A DNA stretch of 59,428 bases from a virus: IMG/VR virus record IMGVR_UViG_3300025127_000036, positions 1-59,428 of that record. The stretch is one strand, 5' to 3'. The notes beneath the pieces were generated by a model. That model saw nothing but the letters and a program-made list of their open reading frames with translations. It was not told the origin of the DNA and made no database searches. This document shows, in pieces, positions 10,893 to 38,711 of the stretch (position 1 is its first letter; each line of letters begins with the position of its first letter). The translations under genes were made by a program, and so were the position numbers.

Positions 10893-11885
10893 ATGCTACA
10901 ATTCTTACCTTATGCATTAGCAGCCTACGGTGGATACAAAGGATACAGAGAAGCTAAAGATGCTGGAGCTTCTGGTCTTGGTAGATTAGCGGGAGGAGCT
11001 ATAGGCGCCACATTAGGTTATTATGGTGGGCAAGCAGGATTAAAAGGCGGTGCAAAATTAGGAATACCAGGTTTTCAAACAGGACTAGATAAATTTGGAG
11101 GCACAATAACGGGATCGATTCCTACATTTACTAATTTACCTATTGTTCAAAACATACCTTTTGTTGGTGCAAACCAATCTAAAGGAATATCAGACTTAGG
11201 GAATTTTTTTACAAGACAACGTGTTGAAAATGGAAAAATTATTAAGGGTGAAAGACAAATAGATCCTATGAAAGCAGGGTTAGGTATTGGTGCATTAACA
11301 TATTTATCTGGTGCGTTTGATCCTCAAGATACAGATATTTTTTCACCGACTTACAATCTAGGTGTAGCAGATTTACAAGAGAAAAGAGATTTTAGATATA
11401 TAGATCCAGTCACTGGAGAAGAAAAAGTTTATGAAAAACTTTACATACCAGAAGCTGATCCAAAAAATAGAGGCGATGCACAGATGGGTAATATAGCAAT
11501 TGAGAGAACAACATTTAAAGCAAAGACCGGAGGTTTAGCTGAGATAAGAAAATTTAACGAAGGTGGTATAAATTATCTACCTTCGAAAGTTTCACACGAT
11601 GAAAACGATGCAAATAATTATGTTAGAGCACGTGGTTATGTTGAAGATGGATCAGGAAATGGTGATAAAGATGAAGATACGATGTTAGCACAATTAGCTG
11701 ATGGAGAATTTGTAACAAGAGCTGATGGTGTTTTAGGTGCAGGAATAATAAATGGCGGTAATCCAAACAGCATAAAAGATATGCGTGAAAAAGGTGCAGC
11801 TTATTTTTACGATCAACAAAGAAAATACAAAAGAGTTTTTGATTTATTAAAGGAGTCACATGGCCTCGACAAGAAAAAAAATTAA
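10893..11885 (+). CDS. Virion-associated protein with Gly-rich helix and LADGEFV motif
   Basis: A 330-aa protein. The N-terminus has Gly/Ala-rich, membrane-seeking helices (AAYGGYKGYREAKDAGASG; GGAIGATLGYYGG). The C-terminus has KTGGLAEIRKFNEGG and TMLAQLADGEFVTRADGVLG, a motif I associate with the C-termini of tail or internal virion proteins in marine phages. It follows a 43-nt gap containing AAGGAG and begins the ejection-protein block. It may be a small internal virion protein that inserts in the host envelope. Function is not established. Confidence 0.45.
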   Translation: MLQFLPYALAAYGGYKGYREAKDAGASGLGRLAGGAIGATLGYYGGQAGLKGGAKLGIPGFQTGLDKFGGTITGSIPTFTNLPIVQNIPFVGANQSKGISDLGNFFTRQRVENGKIIKGERQIDPMKAGLGIGALTYLSGAFDPQDTDIFSPTYNLGVADLQEKRDFRYIDPVTGEEKVYEKLYIPEADPKNRGDAQMGNIAIERTTFKAKTGGLAEIRKFNEGGINYLPSKVSHDENDANNYVRARGYVEDGSGNGDKDEDTMLAQLADGEFVTRADGVLGAGIINGGNPNSIKDMREKGAAYFYDQQRKYKRVFDLLKESHGLDKKKN

Positions 11886-13164: not shown

Positions 13165-14493
13165 ATGAATAAGGTATTAATGAGACCTTTGTTTAGAAAA
13201 GCTTATCTTGCAAGGGAAAAAACTGCGAACGTTAAAAAATTTAAAGTAGGTGGATTTTCTCAAACTGAAAGAAGAAATTTATTACTCACCCCTATAACTT
13301 CTGCATTATTACAAGCTAAAACTATGCCGGGAGAAAGTCAGTTAAGTTCTTTGGCAAGAGCTTTTGGTAAAGGTATTCAACCAATACCTAATATAGCAAT
13401 GAATATAAAACAAATAGACGATGCAGCTAGAGCTAAAGAACAAGATAAAATATCTAAAACAAAAGAGGTTTTAGATACAACAACAAACAACGTAGTTTTT
13501 AAAACTGAGTTTGATATTCAAAATGAAGTAAAAGCTGATAACACTCCAAGATATGTACCAGTGCCGAGCAAAGAGTCTCAGATAAAACCAATGAGAGTTT
13601 TTGATTTAAAAGAGGGGGTTAAAACTTTTGTAAACCCTAATGATGTTTTAACAACCAAATATACGGTAAATGATGAAGAAAAATTAAGATATGCTCCAGT
13701 TGGAGATGAAGATTCTTTAGTAAAGGCTTATAAAAAATTAGATACTGGTGAGTTTAACACAAGCGCAGGTTATTTTAAAAAGTCAGAGGTGTTGGCAAAT
13801 CCTGAATTATTTAAACCTATAGAGGGTAATATAGAGATGATGTTAAAAATGAAAGATATAGACAGGATGAAAAAAATAAAATCTGAGGCAGATGGATCTA
13901 TGGTAGCTGCAAATGCGGCTGCTAAAACAATACGTACCATTGAGAACGATATCGCTAAAGGAGCATTTACGGGTAACGCAGCAGACCTAACTAGCATAAT
14001 TACAGGCACAACAGGTTTTGTAGAACAATTTATTAATAGAGAAAAGAAAACTAATATGCAAGTTTTTAACTCTGAGTATAATGCAACAAAAAGAGAAATT
14101 GATGCTATTTTATCAGGCAGAAAGACAGTTAATGAAAGAGTTACAAGATTTTTAAAGGCAGCTGAAACTCAAGGTTTGAAAACTTCTGTAATTAATTTAG
14201 CTTATTTAATTGCTAAAGCTAGAGAACCTGGAGGCAGATTTAGTGTACCTGACATTGAATTAGCTTTATCTTCTATAGGTCAAAGTTCTAATAAAATTAG
14301 TTTTTTAGCAGGATTAAAAAGAACTGGAGAAGAAATTACAAGAAACGCAATAGATCAGTATAAATTAGCGTATAATGTTTTAGATGAAGATATTCCAAAT
14401 AAATATAGGGATTTAATAGATAATTATAATTATTTTGGTGGTTATCAAATAAATAAAGATGATGACGTAATGCCAGGTAGTTTAAATTTTTAG
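13165..14493 (+). CDS. Probable internal virion / ejection protein (medium)
   Basis: A 442-aa, mainly helical protein. The N-terminus is basic (MNKVLMRPLFRKAYL). The middle has MRVFDLKEGVKTFVNPNDVL, and the C-terminal half has long helices (TIRTIENDIAKGAFTGNAAD; GFVEQFINREKK; ISFLAGLKRTGEEI). Position and composition fit the second member of a three-protein ejection set. It could instead be a peptidoglycan-interacting virion protein, though no hydrolase motif is visible. Confidence 0.5.
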   Translation: MNKVLMRPLFRKAYLAREKTANVKKFKVGGFSQTERRNLLLTPITSALLQAKTMPGESQLSSLARAFGKGIQPIPNIAMNIKQIDDAARAKEQDKISKTKEVLDTTTNNVVFKTEFDIQNEVKADNTPRYVPVPSKESQIKPMRVFDLKEGVKTFVNPNDVLTTKYTVNDEEKLRYAPVGDEDSLVKAYKKLDTGEFNTSAGYFKKSEVLANPELFKPIEGNIEMMLKMKDIDRMKKIKSEADGSMVAANAAAKTIRTIENDIAKGAFTGNAADLTSIITGTTGFVEQFINREKKTNMQVFNSEYNATKREIDAILSGRKTVNERVTRFLKAAETQGLKTSVINLAYLIAKAREPGGRFSVPDIELALSSIGQSSNKISFLAGLKRTGEEITRNAIDQYKLAYNVLDEDIPNKYRDLIDNYNYFGGYQINKDDDVMPGSLNF

Positions 14494-14501
14494 GATTAAA
14501 A

Positions 14502-17500
14502 ATGGCCTTACTAAAAGCTGCAAATGTTGATGAATATAGACAAATGTACGGTGAAGCTCTCGCTGAAAGAGAGAAAGAATTAGGTAAAGAGATTACAGAT
14601 GAAATGCTTACTGAGGCAATTTACAAAAAATTATCAGGAAAAGCAGATATAGATTATTATTCTTTTTATAAAGCTTTTAATCCACAAGGTAAATATTCTA
14701 ATCTTGCAACATATAGAACTGAAATAGAAGATAATGAATCAAATGATACTGATATAATCAATCAAGCTTATGAGGAATTACAAGCAAACGGAAAAGTAAG
14801 ATTTAAAGATTTTGTAAATGTATTTGCTCCAAAAGATTTTAATAAGGATAAATATTTAGAGGATTTAACTTTTTCTTTTGATGTACCAAAAATACCGGAC
14901 ACCGAATACTCTATAAAAGAAATAGCCGAAATGAGAGGTATTAACCCGGAGACAGATGTTAATTTGTCAGAGGTAGGGTTTGCTCAAGCTTTGGCTAGAG
15001 ACGATGAAGATAAAGCTTTAGCTGCGAAAACTGTTTTAAGTAATTATTTTAATCAAGATGTTCCAATTCGATATGGTCAAGAAACAGAAGAATTAGAATT
15101 TTTAAATCCACAATCAGGAAAGTATGAATTAGTAAATGCCTATGGTTTAGACTCTGGAGATTTAGCTAAGTTTGGAACTTATGGATTATTTATAGTTCCA
15201 GAAATTATTGCCACTACTTTTGCGGCAGGAACCACAGGGCCAACAGGAGCTGTAATAACATCTGCAGCATCCTCGGCAATATTAGAAACAGCTAGACTTG
15301 CTTTAGGAAATGAATTGTATGGCATAAATAAAACAGAAAAGGGATTTACTGATTATTTGAAAAATGAAGGAAAAGATATGGCAGTTTTAAATGCTGCTTT
15401 AACACAAGCGGGAATTACAATACCTAAACTATATAGAATGGTAAAGGATCTCAGAAGATTTGGTAAAATTAATGCATCAGAGTTTGGCGGTAAAATAAAA
15501 GACGCTGAGCAAGCCAATAAATTAATGATGGAGATAAACGATAGATTAGTACAACTTGGCGAAAAAAGAAAATTAAAATTTACTTTAGGTCAAGCTAGTG
15601 ATGATCCGGAACTTCTTGCTTTACAAAATGCCTACGAGTCAAATCCAAAATATGGTGTAAAAGGCACATTTGATGAATTTAACAAGGAACAAGCAGAAGC
15701 ATTAGATGTTTATATGAATTTAATGTCAGATCAATATAATTTTACAAGTTTATCTGGAAAAAACAATATAGCAGCAGATGAGTTAGGGGAGTTAATTCAA
15801 GAGACAATAGTAAAAAGATTAAGTCCTAAACAAAAAAAACTTACAGCTAATCTAGAAGCAGCACAAACGGATTTGACTGATGCCATAATAAAATTTCCTG
15901 ATGGTAGTGCTAAAGAAGCAGGAGATAGAATAAGAAGTGTTATTGACGATCTATATGATGATTTTGAAGAGTCATATTCAAAAAAATATACAGCTTTGTT
16001 TGAGACAGGTAAGGGTCGAAAAATAAACACTGATATTATTAGAAGTGCTGTAAAGGATTTAAACAAAAGACAAAGAGAAACGTTATTTAAAAAATATCCA
16101 AGTATAAAAACTTTTTTTAAATTACCCAAAGGTTCTAAAGTTAACATAAATACATTAAAAAATACTTTAAGTGATTTAAGAAGGTTTGACAGGGAGATTC
16201 AAAAAGGGATAGTGCCAGTAGAAGGTTCTCCTGTTGAGGGTTCAGTTTCAAAATTAATAGGATCTATAAAAGATCAATTTGCTCAAGACTTAGGCACGGA
16301 TGATGTTTGGTATAGAGAGTTTTTAAAATTGGATAAAGCTTATAAGAAAAACAAAGATTTATATAGAGGAACAATCGCTAAAATTATTGCAACTAAAAAT
16401 GGTAGACCAGTTATTGCGGGTGAAGATGTTTTCAAACAGACTTTCAAAAAAGGAGCTGGCCAAATAACCAGAATTGATGATGTTTATAATATTTTAAAGA
16501 AAAGACCAAGTTTAATAACAGATTACAAAAATCAAATATTAGGAGCTTACAAACAAGCTGTAGACCCTAACAATACAGGAAAAGTAAATTTGGTTGCGCA
16601 TCAGAGATTTTTAAATGATTATTCATATGCTTTAGAAAAGTTTTTTGGTGGTAAAGCAGGTGCAAAAAAACTTGAAACGATCGGTGCTTTAGCAAAAAAT
16701 GTTGAAGCTGCAACATTAAAAAGAGATAAAATAATGAAGCAATTAGGTAAATCCACTGAGGGTAAAATTGAGGCTATGGATCCAGATAAAATATTTCAGT
16801 TTTTGTATAACAATAAATCGCCTACAACTTTGAATAAAGTAATGACTATAATTCGACAAGATAAAGATTTATTAAATGCATTTCAAACTGTAGCCAAAGA
16901 TGATTTGTTATTTAAGGTTACAGACAATAGAGGTAAACTTAATTTTAATAATTTTGCAAATTATTTAAAAAATAATAAACAAATTTTAGATAGGACTTTT
17001 TCTGACAATCCTCAATTTATTTTAGATTTAGGAAGAATGAGAGATGCTTTAGAAATAACTACTAGAACATCAACACAGAAAACAATAGGTAAAGCTGAAA
17101 CTGCATTAAATGATATTATAAGAGCGAGACTTGGTCAATTTACAGTTGCCGGTAGAACGTTTACTGCTTTGAAAAAGATTGTAAGATCAGATGTTGATAG
17201 ACAATTAGCTGAAATAATTACAGATCCAAAAAGACTTAAAGAACTTTTAGATTTAAAAAATGTTCCAAAAGATTCAAAATTGGCAAAACAAACAATAACA
17301 AGATTATTTGGTTATTATATTTTTGATGAAAAATTCTTTGAAGACGATCAGTACACTCCTACTATGATTGATATAGTAGATGCACAACAAATCAATCAAG
17401 CTTCTAGACAAGGATCTCCAATTCAAGAAGAGCAACCTACCGAAGAAATAATTCAAACAACTGCTTTACCACAAAATGCACCAATGCCTAGAACAACTGG

Positions 17501-29591: not shown

Positions 29592-29829
29592 ATCTCATGC
29601 TTTTAATAGTTGGGTTAAAGAAATGGACGAGGTGCTTTCTGAAACTCAAAGTTTAACAATTGATGGTCAGCCAATGGAGGCTTCCGACTATCATTTTAAA
29701 GATCAAATAAAAAAACTTGCAAAAGTTCCGCTAGTCCTTGATGGTCAAGCTGTCTATCCATTAAACGATTGGACAGCATCTGATTTAGTCCATAGTGAAA
29801 TTGATGCAAAAAACACGAGTGAGGTATAA
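29548..29829 (+). CDS. 93-aa hypothetical protein upstream of ParB-like gene
   Basis: Protein with SKSHAFNSWVKEMDEVLSET, SLTIDGQPMEASDYHFKDQI and AVYPLNDWTASDLVHSE, mostly helical. The start is uncertain: ATG 29548 has a weak site, and ATG 29575 has AAAGGAGG only 2 nt away. It overlaps the ParB-like gene by 1 nt, so the two are probably co-expressed. No family recognised. Confidence 0.5.
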   Translation: MSKLTAKEVMSIKSKSHAFNSWVKEMDEVLSETQSLTIDGQPMEASDYHFKDQIKKLAKVPLVLDGQAVYPLNDWTASDLVHSEIDAKNTSEV

Positions 29830-30608
29830 TGTCAAAAACCAAAAAAAGCGAAAGTAACATAATTTATGTTACGCGTGATTACAGTATGTTTAAAACTGTA
29901 AAAGGAAATCGTGCAATTGATGAAGCGCACGTGCAGAGACTAGTTAGGGAGATGAAGAGAAAAGATTTAGATCTTCCTATCTTTATAAACGAGAATGATG
30001 AAGTTGTTGATGGTCAACATACTTTACAAGCTCGAAAAGAGTTGGGTAAACCAGTCAGATATATAAGAGGCAAATTCGAAAATGAATTCGATGTTGCAAT
30101 TATGAACGCCAATAGAAAAAATTGGCCCATGACTGCTTACTTAAATTTTCATATTGAAAATGGGAAAAAAGATTATAGCATAGTTAAAGCAATGACTAAG
30201 CAATATTCTTTACCATTAGAATGCGCAGTATTTATTCTTGCCGGTGGTTATTCAATGTGGAGAGAAACAAGAAATGATTTTAAACAAGGTAAGTTTAAAA
30301 TTAAAACTCTTCAAAGATGTAATGATGTAGGTTCATCGTTGATGTATATGAAAAATAATTTCAATATAAATTTGACGAGACCTTTTATTACTGCATACTT
30401 GGTAATATCAGAACATCCTAAATTTAAGTGGGAACGTTTTAAAACTGCTCTTAAAACAAAATCTGCTTTGTTATTGAGGGGAACAAACACTGAGGATTTT
30501 ATCAGAGTATTTGATAAAGTTTATAACGGAAATGTTCATAACAAAATAAATTTCACGAGATATTTTTTAGATCGTGAATATCAAGATAGAGAAGACGAAA
30601 ACAAGTAA
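29829..30608 (+). CDS. ParB/sulfiredoxin-fold protein
   Basis: A 259-aa protein. Residues about 25-80 carry the ParB N-terminal pattern: NRAIDEAHVQRLVREMKRKD, then LPIFINENDEVVDGQHTLQA and RKELGKPVRYI. The DGQHTLQARKELG box is the equivalent of the ParB (V)xGHRRLxA box, now known as a nucleotide-binding site. The rest is helical with no obvious ParB-type linker. There is no ParA in the window, so plasmid-style partition is unlikely to be complete. A nuclease, transcription or segregation-like role is possible. Confidence 0.7.
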   Translation: MSKTKKSESNIIYVTRDYSMFKTVKGNRAIDEAHVQRLVREMKRKDLDLPIFINENDEVVDGQHTLQARKELGKPVRYIRGKFENEFDVAIMNANRKNWPMTAYLNFHIENGKKDYSIVKAMTKQYSLPLECAVFILAGGYSMWRETRNDFKQGKFKIKTLQRCNDVGSSLMYMKNNFNINLTRPFITAYLVISEHPKFKWERFKTALKTKSALLLRGTNTEDFIRVFDKVYNGNVHNKINFTRYFLDREYQDREDENK

Positions 30609-31203: not shown

Positions 31204-31375
31204 GAAAAAACCTCATATTGATTTTTGCCGTGATTTAGAGGGCCCTGAAAAAAGTGAGTATATTGACATGGTTCTTGATGATTACAATTTTTCGTTAGAA
31301 ATGGCCTTCTCTCCTAAAACTAAAATGTTTCACCGTGAATTACTCAGCAAACTTGTTAAAACTTTTGGGCATTAG
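31187..31375 (+). CDS. 62-aa hypothetical protein
   Basis: MEIFFKKKPHIDFCRDLEGP followed by EYIDMVLDDYNFSLEMAF. No good ribosome site is visible, and an 8-bp hairpin (31140-31178) ends 8 nt before the ATG. It overlaps the longer form of the next gene. The coding call is tentative and rests on length and position. Confidence 0.35.
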   Translation: MEIFFKKKPHIDFCRDLEGPEKSEYIDMVLDDYNFSLEMAFSPKTKMFHRELLSKLVKTFGH

Positions 31376-31388
31376 GATATCATCGACC

Positions 31389-31751
31389 GTGGTTGAAAAG
31401 ACTAAGTCCCCTGAAGAAAAATTATTTCAAGCCGTATTATTGCAGGCTTTTGAAGATGTAAGTACCCTATCTGGCTCTAAACAGGAAAGTTATCTTAAAA
31501 AAGATGCTCATGATTGGATATTAGATAATGGTAAAAATTTTAAAAATGTTTGTTGGTGCGCGGGCCTTGATCCTGATTACGTACATGATCGGTATATAAA
31601 ACTGGTAAAAAATGGGTCAATAAAGTTTACCGAATTACAGAGATCGTGGGTAAAATATAGGAAATTATATAAAGATTATAGGAGTGCAAATTCTTCGAGT
31701 GAGAGGAGAGAAATTATGTTTAAAATTTCTGAGGTAAATTTAAAAAAATAG
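31389..31751 (+). CDS. Conserved phage protein with VCxxAGLDPDYV motif
   Basis: A 120-aa protein if started at GTG 31389 (AGGA 11 nt upstream); GTG 31335 is an alternative giving 138 aa. KSPEEKLFQAVLLQAFEDVS, then AHDWILDNGKNFKNVCWCAG, and GLDPDYVHDRYIK form a pattern I recognise in many phages, often near replication or terminase genes. It is mostly helical. It may be a DNA-binding regulator, but no direct evidence supports that. Confidence 0.6.
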   Translation: MVEKTKSPEEKLFQAVLLQAFEDVSTLSGSKQESYLKKDAHDWILDNGKNFKNVCWCAGLDPDYVHDRYIKLVKNGSIKFTELQRSWVKYRKLYKDYRSANSSSERREIMFKISEVNLKK

Positions 31752-31774
31752 TCATGGTGGTCTTATAAATTTTA

Positions 31775-31829
31775 CCCCTGAGGGAAAATTAACTAATTGA
31801 GAGCATAAAATGAGAAAAACCCTCAGGGG
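31775..31829 (+). repeat. 10-bp inverted repeat CCCCTGAGGG
   Basis: CCCCTGAGGG (31775-31784) and its exact complement CCCTCAGGGG (31820-31829) are separated by 35 AT-rich nt. This could form a long-loop hairpin in RNA or bind a dimeric protein. It starts 23 bp after the stop of the upstream gene, so it could act as a terminator, but there is no T run. Confidence 0.6.
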
Positions 31830-31908
31830 CATGTTACATACTAAATGAGTGTTAATAAACACATCTTATTTATACAATAAAAACGGATAATGGACAACGG
31901 AAAAAGGC

Positions 31909-31950
31909 CCACGGCCCGTGGTGACAAATAAATGATAAAAAGAACCACGG
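31909..31950 (+). repeat. GC palindrome with matching downstream arm
   Basis: CCACGGCCCGTGG (31909-31921) is a perfect palindrome around one C. Its right half also pairs with ACCACGG (31944-31950) as CCGTGGT (31916-31922) over a 21-nt AT-rich loop, giving two alternative structures. The string GGACAACGG occurs on both sides (31892 and 31950). Its G+C content stands out from the surroundings. Confidence 0.55.
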
Positions 31951-32095
31951 ACAACGGGCCAACAAAAGGTCTTTTATGAGTATAAAAAACTTTATAATTA
32001 TAACACAAAACCCTAAAAATGTCTTTAAGAAAAATTCCCTATATAGATTATACAGACCTTTGATTAATAAAAAGTACCCCCGTGGTCTAAAATGG

Positions 32096-32198
32096 TGTCC
32101 CTGATGTCCCTGAAGATGAATAAAGCAATAATATCAATGATTTAAGTAGGTTTTTATGGTGTCCCTATGGTGTCCCTATGGTGTCCCTTAGGGACACC
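32096..32198 (+). repeat. Tandem TGTCCC repeats ending in a hairpin
   Basis: TGTCCCTGA is repeated twice (32096-32104, 32105-32113). TATGGTGTCCC is repeated three times with an exact 11-bp period (32155-32165, 32166-32176, 32177-32187). The last copy forms an 8-bp hairpin with the following GGGACACC (32180-32187/32191-32198, loop TTA). The 11-bp period puts the sites on one face of the DNA helix, as expected for iterons or packaging-protein binding sites. The set ends 73 bp before the terS start. Confidence 0.75.
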
Positions 32199-32232
32199 TC
32201 TTGCGGGAACGCAACCTAAACTTTTTTGAAAG

Positions 32233-32260
32233 TTGATCATGTGTTAAAATAATCTATATA
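32233..32260 (+). promoter_or_regulatory. Possible promoter of terS
   Basis: TTGATC (32233-32238), 16 nt, TATATA (32255-32260), with a predicted start about 4 nt before the ATG at 32271. The terS ATG has no ribosome site, in line with a leaderless or nearly leaderless message. The -35 match is partial. Confidence 0.35.
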
Positions 32261-32270
32261 GTAAAAAATT

Positions 32271-32792
32271 ATGCCTCAAATTAAAAAAATTGAAAGATCT
32301 GAAAAAGATTTAACACCTAAGCAACGTATGTTTTGTGATATTCTCGTTGCAAATTGGGGTGAAATTACATATGCCGAGGCCTGTAAAAGGGCCAAATATG
32401 AGTGTGCTAATGAAAAAGATTATTCAGCTATAGCCTCAAGATTATTAAATAGAAGGTTAAATCCCCATATAGCAAAATATTTAGACAAAAAATATGAAGA
32501 AGAAGTTAATAAATTCTCAAAAGATAAACTTAAAAGATTTAAAAGATTAGATCATTTATCTAAAGAAGCTGAGAAGAGTAAACAATTTAATGTATCTGTA
32601 CAGGCTGAATATAGATCAGGCCAATTAGCGGGCTTGTATGTTGATAAGAGAGAAGTTAAAGTAAGTGGTTTAGAAGGAATGAGCCGTGTTGAACTTGAAA
32701 AAAAACTCAGTGAATTGTCAAAAAAAATTGATGGTTACAACGCCAAAACCATCGAAATCGAAGCCGAAGAGACAAAAGAGCTTCAAAAATAA
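32271..32792 (+). CDS. terS: Terminase small subunit
   Basis: A 173-aa protein. The N-terminal KDLTPKQRMFCDILVANWGE followed by ITYAEACKRAKYE is the helix-turn-helix DNA-recognition region of Terminase_2-type small subunits. Helical oligomerisation follows (YLDKKYEEEVNKFSKDKLKR), and the C-terminus is a coiled coil. It would bind the packaging site and load the large subunit. It lies 6.1 kb from terL, separated by the minus-strand island, which is unusual. Tandem 11-bp repeats lie just upstream. Confidence 0.75.
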   Translation: MPQIKKIERSEKDLTPKQRMFCDILVANWGEITYAEACKRAKYECANEKDYSAIASRLLNRRLNPHIAKYLDKKYEEEVNKFSKDKLKRFKRLDHLSKEAEKSKQFNVSVQAEYRSGQLAGLYVDKREVKVSGLEGMSRVELEKKLSELSKKIDGYNAKTIEIEAEETKELQK

Positions 32793-32866: not shown

Positions 32867-33163
32867 ATGTCAAAACGAAAAATAACGTTAAATAAAAGAG
32901 CTAAAACTGAAATAGAAAGATATCCCATGGTCTCCGTGGAGTGGTACGATATCGTATCAAATAGTTCATGGTCAAGTTTTCAAGAACTAAAAAAATCAAA
33001 ACTCGCAACATGCATTACAAAAGGCCATCTTTACAGTCAAGCAAAAGGAGTTACCAGAATTTTTGGAGATTATTCTTATTCTGAAAATGGCTTAGATATT
33101 GAAAGCATTGGAAACACAACTATAATACCTAATTCAGTAATTAAAGAAATAAAAAAAATTTAA
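32867..33163 (+). CDS. 98-aa conserved protein (SVEWYDIVSNSSW)
   Basis: MSKRKITLNKRAKTEIERYP precedes SVEWYDIVSNSSWSSFQELK, a motif I know from small phage proteins that begin 'xVxWxDxxSxxxW' and end in an IGNTTIIPNSVIKEI-type strand, as here. It is probably a compact beta-rich domain. Function unknown. The gene ends just before an intergenic GC-rich segment between convergent genes. Confidence 0.6.
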   Translation: MSKRKITLNKRAKTEIERYPMVSVEWYDIVSNSSWSSFQELKKSKLATCITKGHLYSQAKGVTRIFGDYSYSENGLDIESIGNTTIIPNSVIKEIKKI

Positions 33164-37795: not shown

Positions 37796-37875
37796 TTTTT
37801 TGTCCTTTTGTTTTGGCATCTCATCAGTATGCGACCGCCACTCGCATAGACGGGGCAATGCCCCGTTTCGATAGA

Positions 37876-38266: not shown

Positions 38267-38686
38267 ATGTCACAACCTGAGGCCCAACTTTGGAAACAAG
38301 TAAAAGAAGCTTTACAACATCAAAATTATTTTTTAACCAGAATTGAAACGTTGACGGTTTCAGGTGTTCCAGATGTATTTGGTTGTTACCGTGGACAATC
38401 TTTTTGGTTAGAATTAAAATCAAATCAGGTCAATTATCCAACGTTGAATAAACATCAAATTGTCTGGATTAACAAAGCAATTAAACATGGATTAAATGTA
38501 TTGATCTTGCATAGAGCCCAAAAGCAAAAGACGCTCAAAATCTACAGACCATTAACTTTTTTTACTGATCCGCGATCCCTTATCCCTGTTTTTATTTGCA
38601 AAATTCCTGTGCGATGGCCGTTATTCGTTGACCATTTTACGCGGGCCGTGTTGACTGATTTAAAAAACTTAAACGCGGATCAGTGA
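38267..38686 (+). CDS. VRR-NUC-type nuclease
   Basis: A 139-aa protein starting at ATG 38267 (an extension to TTG 38228 crosses the palindrome and has no support). SGVPDVFGCYRGQSFWLELK, then LNKHQIVWINKAIKHGLNVL is the VRR-NUC pattern: catalytic D in PDV, E-x-K in ELK, and a Q in the helix. Phage VRR nucleases may act as junction resolvases or restrict host DNA. It lies 168 bp upstream of terL, so debranching before packaging is plausible, as with T7 gp3. Confidence 0.75.
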   Translation: MSQPEAQLWKQVKEALQHQNYFLTRIETLTVSGVPDVFGCYRGQSFWLELKSNQVNYPTLNKHQIVWINKAIKHGLNVLILHRAQKQKTLKIYRPLTFFTDPRSLIPVFICKIPVRWPLFVDHFTRAVLTDLKNLNADQ

Positions 38687-38711
38687 CCGTTGACCGTTGA
38701 CCGTTGACCGC
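38684..38711 (+). repeat. Four tandem TGACCGT repeats
   Basis: TGACCGT occurs three times followed by TGACCGC (38684-38711), a 7-bp period starting inside the stop region of the VRR nuclease gene. CGTTGACC also occurs near 38627. Each unit joined to the next makes TTGACC, a -35-like hexamer. It lies about 145 bp upstream of terL. Possible regulator site, recombination hot spot or simple slippage product. Confidence 0.65.

Follow-up and report, generated by a model that had tools for sequence, protein, structure and literature searches.

Introduction

The pac site of bacteriophage P1, which lies inside the pacA gene, comprises an IHF site and hexanucleotide sites that form a cluster to either side of the cut. 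The iteron origins of theta plasmids, such as that of pSC101, combine phased direct repeats with an AT-rich region and inverted copies. In phage lambda, the cosB site has the order R3 – IHF – R2 – R1, with three sites for the terminase small subunit (TerS), one of which is inverted, and an IHF site between two of them; the sequence of the cosB motif differs between related phages, and a lambda-like TerS recognizes its own cosB specifically (PMC4669245). In SPP1-type pac sites, multiple contact points lie near the TerS gene and packaging proceeds by the headful mechanism (PMC9611059).

For the phages considered here, a paper covering about 80 genomes of the group is silent on intergenic regions, on promoters and on any replication origin (PMC9599517), and a transcriptome of HTVC027P infection exists (PMC12753301). 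A literature search of incomplete coverage returned no published description of the array reported below. The original prediction, made from the letters of the DNA, had proposed that the 519 bp preceding terS form one dense repeat region and a candidate origin or packaging site. Here, we dissect this region and compare it among relatives; the comparison indicates that it contains a real control site, probably the one at which the packaging or the copying of the viral DNA starts.

Source of the Window and its Lineage

The window, that is the whole stretch of DNA analyzed, is the IMG/VR virus contig IMGVR_UViG_3300025127_000036, of 59,428 bases. Its TerL is 71% identical to that of Pelagibacter phage HTVC023P and 62–63% identical to those of 023Pt_psg01 and HTVC027P, while its TerS is about 50% identical to the HTVC023P protein; judged by the identities of both proteins to those of HTVC023P, the window belongs to the HTVC023P-type pelagiphages. 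An array of the same kind occurs, with TerS on the same contig, on NODE_7 (L301) of the Pelagibacteraceae single-cell genome AG-919-D18, which ties the lineage to SAR11 cells. This phage element is also evidence for the infection of a wild SAR11 cell (AG-919-D18).

Anatomy of the Region

The stretch from 31752 to 32270 holds at least two separate elements, a hairpin following ORF138 and the array. The features of the region and of its neighbor genes are the following:

31335–31751, + strand: ORF138, all-alpha homologue of HTVC023P gp19, upstream of the array in all relatives with sufficiently long contigs
31775–31829, no strand: 10-bp inverted repeat (hairpin) just 3′ of ORF138, separate from the array
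31904–31963, no strand: GC-rich cluster of CAACGG/CCACGG words, the palindrome of the original prediction, poorly conserved in sequence
32039–32051, – strand: left flanking element L, reading ATAATCTATATAG on the – strand, at a fixed 54–56 bp from the first site
32094–32102, + strand: site A1, GGTGTCCCT
32103–32111, + strand: site A2, GATGTCCCT, 9 bp after A1
32112–32157, no strand: AT-rich spacer of rigid length, with a conserved CAA-N3/4-TT element (consensus of 41 non-redundant loci)
32132–32144: spacer element TATCAATGATTTA, the window form of CAA-N3/4-TT
32158–32166, + strand: site A3, GGTGTCCCT
32169–32177, + strand: site B1, GGTGTCCCT, 11 bp after A3
32180–32188, + strand: site B2, GGTGTCCCT, 11 bp after B1
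32190–32198, – strand: inverted site A4′, AGGGACACC, which in GGT-type relatives changes with A1–A3 and not with B1/B2
32200–32212, + strand: conserved box CTTGCGGGAACGC, the right edge of the swapped cassette
32249–32261, + strand: right flanking element R, ATAATCTATATAG, which repeats L exactly in inverted orientation and overlaps a promoter-like –10, at a variable distance from the array
32271–32792, + strand: terS, terminase small subunit
32867–33163, + strand: ORF98 (phrog_25889), a conserved gene that follows terS; in HTVC027P and 023Pt_psg01 it comes immediately after the array

The core of the array (32039–32261) is present in a single copy and consists of two 9-bp sites, the AT-rich spacer, three sites at 11-bp spacing and one inverted copy. 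The tandem pair at 32094–32111 contains one mismatch, and the three 11-bp units occupy 32158–32188, directly before the inverted copy. The components listed in the original prediction, namely the 10-bp inverted repeat, the GC palindrome, the 9-bp tandem pair and the three 11-bp units with their hairpin, are all present, and terS begins, as it had said, 73 bp past the end of that hairpin; what it had passed over is an exact inverted repeat of 13 bp on the two sides of the array (CTATATAGATTAT at 32039–32051, ATAATCTATATAG at 32249–32261). The 11-bp period, from which it had placed the sites on one helical face, does so for the triple but not for the pair, whose members are 9 bp apart and lie 62–64 bp away.

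TGTCCC occurs in the array five times in forward orientation, the number originally counted, and once inverted. The word is not over-represented in the genome (15 found against 15.2 expected), but six of the 15 copies fall within 103 bp, whereas in 20,000 random scatters of 15 hits the densest 110 bp contained at most four. The self-match at period 11, of 23 bases, is the longest in the window at any period from 7 to 30, against a maximum of 11 in 40 shuffles. The repeats of the array are real and non-random, and its motif is found nowhere else in the genome. The spacer element fits the IHF consensus; in SAR11, the one single-cell genome searched for IHF contains no clear IHF gene but a single HU/IHF-like protein, scoring well below the IhfA and IhfB cut-offs, and we accordingly place no weight on IHF.

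The Hairpin After ORF138 and the GC Palindrome

The 10-bp inverted repeat is exact (CCCCTGAGGG at 31775–31784, CCCTCAGGGG at 31820–31829). In relatives the pairing of the stem is kept while its sequence changes, and in 21 of 33 diverse relatives the hairpin exceeds 95% of its own shuffles; its context is conserved as well, with a TCAYGGNGG lead and GAGAGCA in the loop. Of the single dense repeat region originally proposed, the repeats stand and the array is conserved in hundreds of relatives, but the 10-bp inverted repeat does not belong to the array and goes with the end of ORF138. The stem changes are compensatory and the hairpin is possibly an RNA element new to Rfam; an Rfam search of the region retrieved no known RNA family. 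Two other explanations of this element were rejected: a small SHGG-like peptide encoded after ORF138, since stops break its frame in many relatives in which the hairpin persists, and an intrinsic terminator, since no T-run follows the hairpin.

The arms of the GC palindrome (31906–31922 and 31944–31960, with CCACGGCCCGTGG inside) are 76% complementary. The CAACGG/CCACGG words that compose it are enriched genome-wide (28 found, 13 expected) and are also present outside the palindrome. The same word family recurs shortly before terL at 38684–38710, in a tandem 7-bp repeat with CAACGG/CGTTGAC words and a 20-base self-match at period 7. Just before terL, amid small ORFs of the minus strand, there is also a type II hammerhead ribozyme (37811–37873, – strand) scoring above the Rfam gathering threshold; none was detected in the 12 relatives scanned (137 kb).

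Conservation of the Array and of its Neighbors

The register of the array is kept in several hundred related contigs. In 102 arrays numbered relative to the triple (2/13/24), L is most often found at –115 to –118, with the pair at –62/–53 and the inverted copy at 32–34; the spacings within the array are rigid (9 bp in the pair, 62–64 bp between the clusters, 11 bp in the triple), and the register is also kept across 271 arrays. The position of R, instead, floats between 80 and 119 in the 102 arrays, with no helical phasing in its distance from the array.

The gene order is likewise constant, with ORF138, the array, small variable genes (0 to about 1.2 kb), TerS and ORF98 in succession in every relative with a long enough contig, and all of the 119 contigs found with a TAT-type triple carry ORF138, TerS or both. 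The interval between R and terS is an insertion hot spot in relatives such as L027, L188 and L398, in which differing small genes of the + strand begin right after R and place terS as far as about 1.2 kb away. When the comparison is at its widest, no neighboring gene other than TerS is present in all four annotated relatives, and ORF98 is nearly as constant a neighbor. A ParB-like gene (29829–30608) is found in the clade with GGTG arrays and was not detected in HTVC023P, HTVC027P, 023Pt_psg01 or DSL-LC04.

TerS matches the Pfam family Terminase_2 in 22 of 24 relatives, at best with 2e-8, the copy in the window scoring 21.9 bits, below the curated 26.1. Its structural model, of low confidence (pLDDT 70, pTM 0.45), suggests an N-terminal three-helix HTH (H16-27/H34-40/H50-58) followed by long helices, whereas ORF138 is modeled confidently as all-alpha (pLDDT 92.7); neither model gave a significant fold match in the PDB.

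More distant clades have a similar layout built from unrelated motifs, such as CTAGGAAA and TGGCACA. The HTVC023P-like phages use CTAGGAAA, with outer repeats around TGTTTGTAAGGAAG; 023Pt_psg01 has six copies of TGGCACA and an outer repeat of 47 nt; HTVC027P has TGTTACA/TGTTTCAC; and in DSL-LC04 the outer repeat, of 36 nt, is 83% complementary over arms 131 bp apart. In the last three the array is within about 0.6 kb of terS. The arrays of HTVC023P and HTVC027P are located at about 11680–11770 (L199) and 13200–13300 (L200), respectively. In HTVC027P (L200 13676–14203) and 023Pt_psg01 (L201 14295–14828), terS is inverted relative to the rest of the genome and the array stays nearby, preceding ORF98 and outside the terS promoter; therefore, the array is not explicable as a terS promoter alone. 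Both genomes also contain intergenic runs of degenerate repeats, GCTTG.. / GCTCGCTC.., at about 14930–15060 in HTVC027P (L200) and 15280–15400 in 023Pt_psg01 (L201). In the CTAGGAAA family, all the sites of an array have changed in concert (CTAAGAA; CTGGGAA) in L264, L265 and L271–L274, with the recognition helix of TerS unchanged.

Motif Types and Their Exchange

In the GGTG family, the motif reads GGTG-NNN-CT and only three NNN types were seen among 271 arrays: TCC (171), TAT (85) and GGT (15). Within a type, the seven bases TG-NNN-CT are constant while the leading GG varies. In GGT arrays, A1, A2, A3 and A4′ are GGT while B1 and B2 stay TCC in 14 of 15, and A and B sites are therefore distinguishable.

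The types are exchanged locally, as a cassette of about 105 bp. One instance is the pair L352 (TAT) and L355 (TCC), whose DNA is nearly 100% identical from just right of A4′ through terS, with identical TerS proteins (172/172 residues), and in which every site differs in type; in other pairs differing in type, the flanks on the ORF138 side are 90–97% identical. ParB proteins paired across types differ in 2 of 260 residues, near-identical ORF138 proteins lie beside both types, and ORF98 is identical across types in two cases. On protein trees (FastTree, midpoint rooting, branch support unused), the minimum number of type changes is 14 for TerS, 13 for ORF138, 16 for ORF98 and 10 for ParB. Given these identical or near-identical copies beside different types, together with the changes on the trees, none of the four proteins dictates the motif type. 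Among the ORF clusters within ±9 kb, best sampled from about –2.5 to +3 kb, none tracks the type beyond clade effects, and a linked reader sought through such association was accordingly discarded. The reader of the motif would thus either tolerate several NNN or be encoded elsewhere or by the host.

Individual candidates for this role fared no better. The recognition helix of TerS looked promising with few loci, in which R57K was unique to L167, and failed with more loci and with the pair carrying identical TerS. In ORF138, the residue linked to class (W/D/Y at position 74) follows clades, and TCC and TAT arrays are accompanied by the same HTH-like segments. A ParB partition protein acting on a parS-like site was dismissed because of its absence from the four phages named above and its near identity across types. 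The TerS ring reading TGTCCC units, as the original prediction had it, is likewise not supported: TGTCCC becomes TGTATC in all copies beside the identical TerS of L352 and L355, and at least 10–16 type changes are counted on the four trees. Its short list of origin or packaging site remains the right one for a single-copy, phased, multi-site element.

Possible Functions of the Array

Lambda cosB shares with the array an extent of about 120 bp, short sites in two groups, with one site inverted, a bending site (putative in the array) between the groups and a place beside the TerS gene (Nu1 in lambda), and the variation of the cosB motif among related phages is a further likeness. In contrast to the three sites of cosB, the array has six, phased at 9 and 11 bp, and it is flanked by outer inverted repeats; no cosN or cosQ is recognized, contig ends are not fixed, and types change with no change in TerS. 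SPP1-type pac sites likewise go with a TerS of the Terminase_2 family, but neither sequence nor layout is homologous to the array. P1 pac resembles it in having short sites grouped in two clusters, with a central region between them, near a TerS-type gene, and differs in being internal to that gene; moreover, no Dam-type methylation control is implied for the array. With pSC101-type iterons the array shares the phased direct repeats, the AT-rich region and the inverted copies, but no initiator gene adjoins it and its 9-bp units, at 9/11-bp spacing, contrast with the usual longer iterons.

The single copy, the rigid two-cluster layout and the outer repeats indicate a site of nucleoprotein assembly. 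Our leading guess, which is held tentatively, is that packaging is initiated there, as suggested by the nearness to terS even where terS is inverted, by the likeness to cosB and by the lack of fixed contig ends. Adjacency to terS and multiple sites in a fixed layout, as expected of a cos or pac site, are both found. In 12 near-full-length records, contig ends fall at scattered positions with respect to terS, which is what permuted or circular genomes with no fixed ends would give, and cos-type fixed ends appear unlikely for this reason. There is a weak cluster of contig ends in the 100 bp to the left of the triple (11, against about 3 per 100 bp), such as a cut could leave, but so could assembly breakage at a swapped, repetitive segment. 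A match between the array type and the specificity of the resident TerS was not found, identical TerS proteins lying beside TCC and TAT arrays and at least 14 type changes falling on the TerS tree; the pair L352/L355 is the main evidence against strict TerS specificity. The single weak HU/IHF-like protein in the SAR11 single-cell genome, the weak TerS model and the near constancy of ORF98 also count against packaging.

In a packaging model, HTVC023P-type pelagiphages would have in 32039–32261 their single cis-acting site, the platform for one large nucleoprotein complex. A protein may bind the pair A1–A2 and the cluster A3–B1–B2–A4′, a bend in the AT-rich spacer would bring the two clusters opposite each other, and the inverted repeat L/R would mark the edges. 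The terminase would recognize this pac-like or cosB-like site to start packaging, putatively with TerS as the DNA-binding subunit, which in that case must accept several NNN types in the constant GGTG-NNN-CT frame; headful packaging of concatemers would follow.

An origin of replication, in which the repeats would serve as iterons to a phage initiator with its gene elsewhere, the AT-rich spacer with L/R would be the melting region, and the array the sole start of copying, is in our estimate a less probable but live rival. The single copy, the helically phased repeats with one inverted copy, the fixed-length AT-rich spacer and the AT-rich inverted elements on both sides would suit it, phased direct repeats with an AT-rich region being a mark of the iteron type, and the PolA/helicase/primase block is about 4.4 kb upstream of the array. 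However, there is no linked initiator among the ORF clusters analyzed, and an iteron type should travel with its initiator, yet arrays are swapped alone. The skew analysis originally suggested as a check for origin activity gave, at silent sites, no lasting change of sign at the array (about 32 kb), although this is a weak test. A live rival of equal probability is a region of transcription control, with L and R as divergent promoter elements and the array as an operator or enhancer that would time a short leftward transcript and the operon of terS. In its favor, the operon's first gene is immediately preceded by a sigma70-like promoter (TTGATC-18-TATAGT) that R overlaps, genes inserted ahead of terS begin right after R, and L is an exact inverted copy of R at a fixed spacing from the array; but the distance between the array and R varies with no helical phasing, no leftward gene is seen for L to drive except gp20 in HTVC023P and three close relatives, the array is not before terS in HTVC027P and 023Pt_psg01, and the outer repeats of other clades are unlike promoters. 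The occurrence of the array only once in the window makes a genome-wide regulator less likely, and the rigidity of the internal spacing and of the distance to L, with a drifting R, fits a complex on L and the array better than an upstream activator site.

Base pairing rather than reading by a protein appears very improbable to us. A4′ would pair with A1, A2 or A3 in alternative hairpins of single-stranded DNA or RNA, and site identity would be kept by pairing and template switching. This would account for the constant match of A4′ to A1–A3, even in GGT types with differing B1/B2, and for type changes that keep complementarity; but B1/B2 retain TGTCCC in 14 of 15 GGT types though they pair with nothing there, the limitation to three NNN types suggests a reader, and the array, being upstream of the promoter-like R, may not be transcribed.

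A further proposal, to which we give a minor share of belief, is that the array acts as an exchangeable cassette of specificity: a start site, for packaging or replication, existing in a few discrete recognition types that would be exchanged among co-infecting pelagiphages by short-tract recombination, with the neighbors left in place. The reader would be unlinked or provided by the host, and selection would favor types not cross-recognized by rival phages or satellites.

Significance

The exchange of types with no change in TerS would be unexpected for lambda-like packaging specificity. HTVC023P and HTVC027P are both cultured, and the function of the array is therefore testable now. SAR11 is the commonest bacterium of the ocean, and its viruses carry the array once per genome, near the DNA-packaging gene; a single-copy, family-wide control site with interchangeable recognition types would offer a handle on the start of packaging or replication in these viruses.
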